Of a stretch of DNA of 64,000 nucleotides, positions 26,893 through 57,022 are shown piece after piece; positions within the stretch are counted from its first letter, which is position 1, and every line of letters begins with the position of its first letter. Origin of the DNA: Paracoccaceae bacterium (lineage in GTDB: Bacteria > Pseudomonadota > Alphaproteobacteria > Rhodobacterales > Rhodobacteraceae); contig CANHLE010000009.1 of assembly GCA_947461435.1 (NCBI GenBank), positions 1 through 64,000 on the forward strand, read 5' to 3'. A model generated the notes under the pieces. That model was not told the origin of the DNA. It saw only the letters and a list, made by a program, of their open reading frames with translations, and did no database searches. Made by a program: the position numbers and the translations under genes.

Positions 26893-29751
26893 CTATTTGG
26901 CCGCAGCGGTCTTTGGCTTCAGCATATCTTTCAAATAGCGGCCCGTATGGCTGGCCTCGACCTTGGCCACCTGCTCGGGCGTGCCGACTGCAACAATCTC
27001 ACCGCCGCCGTCGCCCCCTTCAGGGCCGATGTCGATCAGCCAGTCGGCCGTCTTGATCACATCAAGGTTGTGTTCAATCACGACCACCGTGTTGCCCTGA
27101 TCCACCAGCGAATGCAGCACTTCAAGCAGTTTGCGCACATCTTCGAAATGCAAGCCTGTCGTAGGCTCGTCCAGAATATACAAGGTCCGCCCGGTCGCCC
27201 GGCGGCTCAGTTCCTTGGACAATTTCACCCGCTGCGCTTCGCCGCCTGACAACGTGGTCGCTTGCTGACCAACCTTGATATAGCCAAGCCCCACCTCGCA
27301 CAGCGCATCCATCTTTTCGCGGATCGACGGAACCGCCTGAAAGAAGTCTTTGGCATCTTCACAGGTCATATCAAGAACATCGGCTATGCTTTTGTTTTTG
27401 AACTTTATTTCTAATGTCTCGCGGTTATAGCGCTGTCCCTTGCACGTCTCGCAAGTCACATAGACATCGGGCAAAAAGTTCATCTCGATCTTCAAAAGTC
27501 CGTCGCCTTGGCACGCCTCGCAGCGCCCGCCCTTGACGTTGAACGAAAACCGCCCCGATTGGTACCCGCGTGCCTTTGATTCCGGCAGACCGGCAAACCA
27601 ATCTCGGATTGGGGTGAAGGCACCGGTATAGGTCGCGGGGTTTGACCTTGGCGTTCGGCCAATGGCCCGCTGATCGATATCAATCACCTTGTCCAGATGT
27701 TCAAAACCCTTGATCGTCTCGCAGGGCGCGGGCGTTTCATGGGCCCCGTTCAAACGCGTGGCGGCCGTCTTGAACAAGGTTTCGATGGTCAAGCTGGATT
27801 TGCCCCCGCCCGAAACACCCGTCACGCAAACGAACATGCCCAAAGGGAATTCGGCCGTGACGTTTTTCAGATTGTTTCCCGTCGCCCCGACAACCACAAG
27901 TTTTTTGCCGTTGCCCTTGCGCCGGGCCTTGGGCACGCGCACTTCGCGCTTGCCCGACAGGTACAGACCCGTCACCGAATTGGGATCATCGGCCACCTGC
28001 TGGGGCGTGCCATGGCTGACAACATGGCCACCGTGCACCCCCGCCCCGGGACCCATGTCAAAGACATAATCGGCTTCCCGGATCGCATCCTCGTCATGCT
28101 CCACAACCAAAACTGTGTTGCCCGCATCGCGCAAATTCTTCAACGTCGTCAGCAAGCGGTCATTGTCGCGCTGGTGCAGACCGATGGAGGGTTCATCCAG
28201 AACGTACAATACCCCCGTCAAACCCGATCCGATCTGGCTTGCCAACCGGATCCGCTGGCTTTCGCCGCCCGACAAGGTACCCGCGGCGCGTGACAGGGTC
28301 AGATAGTTCAGGCCCACGTTCACCAAAAATCCCAGCCGCTCGCGGATCTCTTTCAAGATTGCCTTGGCGATTTCGTTCTTTTGTGCTGTCAGATTGTCCG
28401 GAACGGTTTGGATCCAAGCCAAAGCCTCGGCGATGGACATCTGCACGACCTGGCCCGCATGCAGTCCCGCAATCTTGACCGCCAAAGCCTCGGGTTTCAG
28501 ACGATATCCCTGGCAGGTTCCGCAGGCCCGATTGTTTTGAAACCGCTCCATATCTTCGCGGCTCCAAGCCGAATCTGTCTCACGATAGCGCCGTTCCATA
28601 TTGGGAATGACCCCTTCGAACACACGGCTGACCTGATAGATCCGTCCCCCTTCGTCATAGCGAAAGGTAATCTCTTCCCCCTTGGATCCGCGCAGGAACA
28701 AATCCTTCACAGTCTCCGGCAAATCCTTCCATTTCGTTTTGCGATCAAAGCTGTAATGGGCAGACAAGGCTTCGATCGTCTGGGTGAAATAGGGGGATTT
28801 TGACTTGGCCCAAGGCGCCAGCGCGCCTTGCAGCAGGGTCAGGTTCTGATCGGGCACCACAAGGCGTTCGTCAAAAAACAACTCCATACCAAGACCGTCG
28901 CACACCGGGCAAGCCCCATAGGGTGCATTGAACGAAAACAGGCGCGGCTCAATCTCGGCGATGGTAAAGCCTGAAACCGGACAGGCAAACTTCTCGGAAT
29001 AGGTGGTGCGTTCGCCCACACCCTCGGCCGGGGCGGTTTCCAGGACCGCAATGCCATCCGCCAGATTCAACGCCGTGCGAAAGCTGTCGGCAAGCCGCGT
29101 CTCGATCCCGCTGCGCACCACGATACGGTCGACCACGACATCAATATTGTGCCGAAACTTCTTGTCCAATGTCGGCGGATCTTCCAATTCGTGAAAGGCG
29201 CCGTTCACCTTGACCCGTTGGAACCCCTGCTTGCGCAGTTCGATGAATTCCTTTTTGTATTCTCCCTTGCGGTCGCGAATGATCGGCGCAAGCAGATAGG
29301 CCCGTGTGCCCTCTTCCATGGCCATCACCGCGTCGACCATGTCTTGCACCTGCATCGCGGTGATCGGCAATCCGGTCGTCGGGCTGAACGGCGTGCCAAC
29401 GCGGGCAAACAACAACCGCAAATAGTCGTAAATCTCGGTCACCGTGCCGACGGTTGACCGCGGGTTTTTCGAGGTTGTCTTTTGTTCAATCGAAATGGCA
29501 GGCGACAGGCCGGAAATATGATCCACATCCGGCTTGCCCTGCATATCCAGAAACTGCCGGGCATAGGCCGACAGGCTTTCAACATAGCGTCGCTGCCCTT
29601 CGGCATAAATCGTATCGAAGGCCAGTGACGATTTGCCCGACCCCGACAATCCCGTGATCACCACCAACTGATCCCGCGGAATATCCACGTCGACGTTCTT
29701 CAAATTGTGCTCGCGCGCGCCGCGCACTTCGATGAACTTGTGTTCCGCCAT
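26893..29751 (-). CDS. uvrA: Excinuclease ABC subunit UvrA
   Basis: The 952-residue protein is the damage-recognition ATPase of nucleotide excision repair. It has two ABC modules with Walker A motifs [13 protein letters not shown] and [13 protein letters not shown], two signature sequences ([13 protein letters not shown] and [13 protein letters not shown]), and zinc-finger cysteines in [16 protein letters not shown] and CETCKGQRY. Full family length. The start is the ATG at 29751. An alphaproteobacterial LexA box lies about 65-80 bp upstream. Confidence 0.98.
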
Positions 29752-29814: not shown

Positions 29815-29829
29815 GAACGAAAAATGAAC
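29815..29829 (-). promoter_or_regulatory. Alphaproteobacterial SOS (LexA) box ahead of uvrA
   Basis: On the uvrA coding strand the sequence is GTTC-ATTTTTC-GTTC, a perfect match to the direct-repeat GTTC-N7-GTTC operator known for LexA of alphaproteobacteria. Its distance from the start codon (about 64 bp) suits a promoter operator. Confidence 0.85.
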
Positions 29830-29883
29830 ATTATGCGAGGATGACCGAAGAAGACGCAGATTTCGGGCCGGCAGCCTTTACAA

Positions 29884-29899
29884 ATTCATTTATATGAAT
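29884..29899. promoter_or_regulatory. ATTC-N8-GAAT operator, SqrR/BigR-like, ahead of the rhodanese gene
   Basis: ATTC-ATTTATAT-GAAT is a perfect inverted repeat, and it matches the ATTC-N8-GAAT motif I recall for the persulfide-sensing repressor SqrR of Rhodobacter. It lies between a possible -35 (TTTACA, 29877-29882) and -10 (TATATA, 29899-29904), 34 bp before the start codon. The regulator gene itself is not in the window. Confidence 0.65.
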
Positions 29900-29932
29900 A
29901 TATAGGGCGGGACTCATAGAAAGGGCCTATCC

Positions 29933-30289
29933 ATGTTCAACCTGTCCCGCGGCCCTGCTGCCGCAAAGCTGACCCTCAAAGACGCCATTGCCCGCTTGGC
30001 CAAGGGCGACATCATCGTGATCGACGTCCGAGAGGGGACCGAAGTCGCGGCCTCCGGTACGGCCAAGGGCGGTTTGCATATTCCGTTGTCGATGATCCCG
30101 CTGAAAGCCAACCCCAAGGGACCCGATTTTGACAGCCGGATCGATCCAGCCAAACCCGTGGCGGTGTTTTGTGCCGTGGGCGGGCGCGCGGGAATGGCGG
30201 TACAGGCGCTTCAGGGCCTCGGGTATGAGGCCCATAATCTGGGCGGCTTCAGCGACTGGGCCGCGGCCGGCGGTCCTGTCACGCGATGA
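29933..30289 (+). CDS. Rhodanese-like sulfurtransferase (single domain)
   Basis: The 118-residue cytoplasmic protein is one rhodanese domain. Landmarks are IIVIDVREGTEVA, GGLHIPLSMIP and the active-site loop VFCAVGGRAGMA with the catalytic cysteine, ending in GGFSDWAAAGGPV. It resembles the N-terminal half of YgaP and would move sulfane sulfur from persulfides. The ATTC-N8-GAAT site at its promoter supports a reactive-sulfur role. Its 3' end overlaps the convergent MFS gene by 11 bases. Confidence 0.92.
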   Translation: MFNLSRGPAAAKLTLKDAIARLAKGDIIVIDVREGTEVAASGTAKGGLHIPLSMIPLKANPKGPDFDSRIDPAKPVAVFCAVGGRAGMAVQALQGLGYEAHNLGGFSDWAAAGGPVTR

Positions 30290-56963: not shown

Positions 56964-57022
56964 GATACCTCCAAGGTTTCCTTGCGGTATCATACATTCA
57001 AATTAATGCATATGGGATAAAG

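Follow-up and report, generated by a model that had tools for sequence, protein, structure and literature searches.

A single-domain rhodanese (sulfurtransferase) of 118 amino acids is encoded at 29933..30289 on the plus strand of the window, the whole 64-kb stretch of DNA that was analysed. The protein matches Pfam Rhodanese (1.6e-10) and carries the loop CAVGGRA with Cys80; the active-site loop C-x-x-G-x-R-[SA], intact here, is present in 70/70 family homologues. Its divergent neighbour is uvrA (26893..29751, minus strand; NCBIfam UvrA, 1586 bits), which serves as a marker of the orthologous rhodanese locus and is separated from the rhodanese gene by a gap of 181 bp. At the other end, the 3' ends of the rhodanese gene and a convergent MFS transporter gene overlap by 11 bases (30279-30289).

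The divergent gap contains, at 29884..29899 on the plus strand, the sequence ATTCATTTATATGAAT, a predicted SqrR-type operator of the form ATTC-N8-GAAT, in which the palindrome arms extend to 6 bp (ATTCAT-TTAT-ATGAAT). A probable -35 hexamer, TTTACA (29877..29882, plus strand), is kept in the closest relatives, and a probable -10 hexamer, TATATA (29899..29904, plus strand), has its TATAT conserved both in relatives and in the columns of the site matrix. The two hexamers are 16 nt apart, and the palindrome fills this gap, abutting or overlapping the -10. The perfect inverted repeat with an eight-base spacer between a possible -35 and -10, described in the initial annotation, is therefore present as stated. 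The rhodanese ATG (29933) lies 33 nt downstream of the operator and the uvrA start 132 nt away. A generic scan for sigma-70 promoters and terminators made no call in this region and missed the hexamers; TATATA is skipped because the rule of the scanner needs a T at the last position.

A further element of the same gap is the direct repeat GAAC-N7-GAAC at 29815..29829, recognised by its sequence pattern, which we take from general knowledge of alphaproteobacteria to be a LexA-type SOS box. It is separate from the operator, probably belongs to the divergent uvrA, and recurs in 51/70 upstream regions of family rhodanese homologues. A single short intergenic gap would in this way hold elements of two unrelated stress regulons.

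The bare motif within the window is not beyond chance, with 1 match observed vs 1.33 expected (52 matches occur in the 3.78 Mb of the genome); it is position and conservation that make it non-random. In a sample of 298 genomes from the family, exact ATTC-N8-GAAT was looked for up to 300 bp upstream of the 70 rhodanese genes that matched best, and it was found in 45/70. About a third of the homologues are without an exact site, and many of the inexact sites differ from it by one letter. Spacers of 2-7 and 9-14 between the same half-sites gave 0-2 matches each in these 70 regions, and Markov-1 resampling of the regions gave 0.65 matches on average and at most 3. Across homologues, the spacer letters vary while the half-sites are kept. 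The significance of the palindrome rests on this comparative evidence: its frequency, its spacer specificity and the resampling control.

In the nearest named relatives (L024-L026), whose rhodaneses are 61-64% identical, half-sites and hexamers are kept and the spacer letters are changed; the -35 region reads CTTTACA in L024 and L025 and TTTACT in L026. The site of Rhodobacter capsulatus (L029) is ATTC-N8-GCAT, one letter off, and that of Marivivens (L027) is more degenerate. Upstream regions of 20 further, divergent rhodanese homologues were also examined. Five of these 20 are uvrA-adjacent, and all five have an exact (G074, G044, G101) or near (G086, G286) site; the members of this set without uvrA alongside have no good site except G116. 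The operator thus follows the uvrA-adjacent rhodanese gene.

The genome has 8 HTH_5 matches, none of them on the contig of the window (C9), in agreement with the earlier statement that the regulator is not encoded nearby. On another contig, an orphan ArsR-type protein is encoded (G000:C157:2084-2365) that shares 67% identity with R. capsulatus SqrR across 91 residues. It matches Pfam HTH_5, its best PDB matches are 6o8k-6o8o (E 1e-35), both of its sensing/redox cysteines align with those of SqrR and BigR, and it has the recognition-helix core RQAAVSQQLARLR in common with R. capsulatus SqrR. Its score against the NCBIfam BigR equivalog is 97 bits, below the cut-off of 155, which makes it SqrR-like rather than a BigR equivalog. 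The search for an SqrR/BigR homologue proposed in the initial annotation has in this way been answered, and an ArsR-type sulfur regulator, whose absence was to count against the proposal, is encoded in the genome. Because the gene stands among unrelated genes, control would be exerted in trans, as had been suggested. No site indicative of SqrR autoregulation was found near the gene. Across the family, SqrR-family matches at E<=1e-20 occur in 243/298 genomes, and, among the 70 rhodanese loci, the exact site accompanies a strong SqrR in 43/62 cases vs 2/8 without one (Fisher p=0.02, kinship ignored).

Other candidate sites in this genome were ranked with a matrix derived from 44 sites in other genomes, the ranking covering pattern searches and selected sequence stretches. 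Among the stretches scanned, the window operator scores highest (35.0), followed by a site at G000:C83:12935-12950 (L055; 21.4). The latter directly precedes a metallo-beta-lactamase-fold gene of the Blh/ETHE1 type, persulfide-dioxygenase-like and matching only the dioxygenase half of Blh, which is followed by a Sulf_transp gene. Divergent from this pair, across the site, is a small ORF whose end resembles a CxxC zinc finger (CAKCGADIG...CRNC). Dioxygenase homologues had no exact site upstream, some of them having a degenerate palindrome of related form, and the C83 site therefore carries less weight than the one at the rhodanese gene. It is suggestive only, since the dioxygenases of R. capsulatus are reported to lie outside SqrR control (PMC9995734). 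Elsewhere in the window, a site-like palindrome, ATTCAAATTAATGCAT, with a score of 16.8, lies at 56996-57011, flanked by a small ORF on one side and a probable tRNA gene on the other.

No site of the ATTC-N8-GAAT type was detected at the genome's own sulfide-quinone reductase gene, sqr (in locus L017, G000:C42:798-3935), and the regulon therefore differs here from that of R. capsulatus. Between sqr and a divergent ArsR gene whose product is cysteine-less, a different palindrome, ATACAT-CAAC-ATGTAT, is present. In this host, a different ArsR protein may control sqr.

The most serious alternative is that the palindrome at 29884-29899 is the operator of another ArsR-family or unrelated regulator, with an inducer other than reactive sulfur. 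Similar palindromes are common among ArsR proteins, and the eight HTH_5 matches supply other candidates; only one ArsR-like protein among those examined, however, falls in the SqrR/BigR group, and the remaining short ArsR proteins are without the spacing of the SqrR cysteine pair. The target gene is, moreover, a sulfurtransferase, and the motif equals the deduced SqrR site as quoted in a paper on YgaV (PMC9774250). This alternative is accordingly improbable. Still less credible is the idea that the conserved element serves uvrA, in SOS response or DNA repair, rather than the rhodanese gene: uvrA does diverge from the same gap, but the separate LexA-type box stands between it and the operator, which is 33 nt from the rhodanese start vs 132 nt from uvrA and overlaps the rhodanese -10. 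Least probable of all is that the palindrome arose by chance in an AT-rich promoter, as one expected match per window might suggest; this is contradicted by the prevalence of the eight-base spacer over other spacers and over resampled sequence and by half-sites that persist while spacer letters vary.

The element at 29884-29899 is thus, with high probability, an operator for a persulfide-sensing repressor of the SqrR type: the motif lies in a promoter, it is conserved at orthologous promoters and SqrR is encoded in the genome, as would be expected of an SqrR-controlled promoter. The SqrR of R. capsulatus is reported to repress both sqr and the rhodanese gene rcc01557, which rise >10-fold with sulfide or upon sqrR disruption, and to leave the promoter once persulfide has linked its cysteines through a tetrasulfide (PMC9995734). 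The rcc01557 rhodanese shows activity as a thiosulfate sulfurtransferase, and the response lasts longer when this enzyme is lost (PMC9995734). By analogy, in a resting cell of the present host, SqrR made from the distant orphan gene would occupy the ATTC-N8-GAAT site that separates the two promoter hexamers and block transcription of the rhodanese gene. Oxidation of sulfide to persulfides or polysulfides would lead to sulfur bridging the two SqrR cysteines and to departure of the protein from DNA; the rhodanese would then be made, move sulfane sulfur and also help to end the response. We infer that repression, tetrasulfide bridging, induction and damping carry over from R. capsulatus in this form, and sulfide very probably induces the rhodanese gene, as it does there. 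The initial proposal of a reactive-sulfur response gene gains support from the SqrR homologue, the family-wide operator, the near-match on C83 and the rcc01557 precedent, and the assignment of the gene as an additional member of the already known SqrR regulon is well supported by sequence comparison.

Variation of the half-sites provides a further lead. Three genomes (G133, G203 and G243; loci L220, L221 and L223) lack SqrR proper and retain just a BigR-type paralogue, whose recognition helix is altered (SQSYVSGQLARMR), and their rhodanese half-sites read ATTA-N8-TAAT (G133, G243) or ATTT-N8-CAAT (G203). It is conceivable, though rather doubtful, that the operator co-evolves with its regulator and that a handover from SqrR to the BigR type has brought a recognisable change of specificity. 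This remains a lead because few genomes are involved and because G164 carries ATTT-N8-TAAT despite having both regulators.

The main added value of these observations is a family-wide footprint of a known regulon. They indicate the uvrA-adjacent rhodanese gene as a widely conserved SqrR target in Rhodobacteraceae, its site persisting even here, where none was detected at sqr. A sulfide-response regulon should thus be readable from sequence in many related bacteria, and the half-site variants amount to a small natural experiment in how ArsR regulators recognise their operators.

Among known systems, E. coli YgaV is a homologous regulator, and an ATTC-N8-GAAT-like sequence has been reported in its operator (PMC9774250); unlike the regulator proposed here, YgaV acts on its own operon and on genes for anaerobic respiration. 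The BigR operon of Xylella and Agrobacterium (bigR, blh and a transporter gene) resembles the present system in having the operator over the promoter, and the C83 pair of persulfide-dioxygenase-like and Sulf_transp genes has a related site. The two systems differ in that the regulator here lies outside the operon, no ArsR gene having been found on contig C9, and in that the C83 dioxygenase corresponds to one half of Blh, while the rhodanese is a separate gene. The closest parallel is the SqrR regulon of R. capsulatus, where the rhodanese gene L029 is also divergent from uvrA. From its best match and this adjacency, we infer that L029 is rcc01557, an identity short of certainty because no paper found in the literature searched gives the gene neighbours of rcc01557 (rcc01556/rcc01558). 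The present system differs from that of R. capsulatus in its sqr gene, which is without a detectable site, and in its perfect ATTC-N8-GAAT vs the ATTC-N8-GCAT of L029; it shares with it the deduced motif, a rhodanese target, a two-cysteine SqrR and control in trans.
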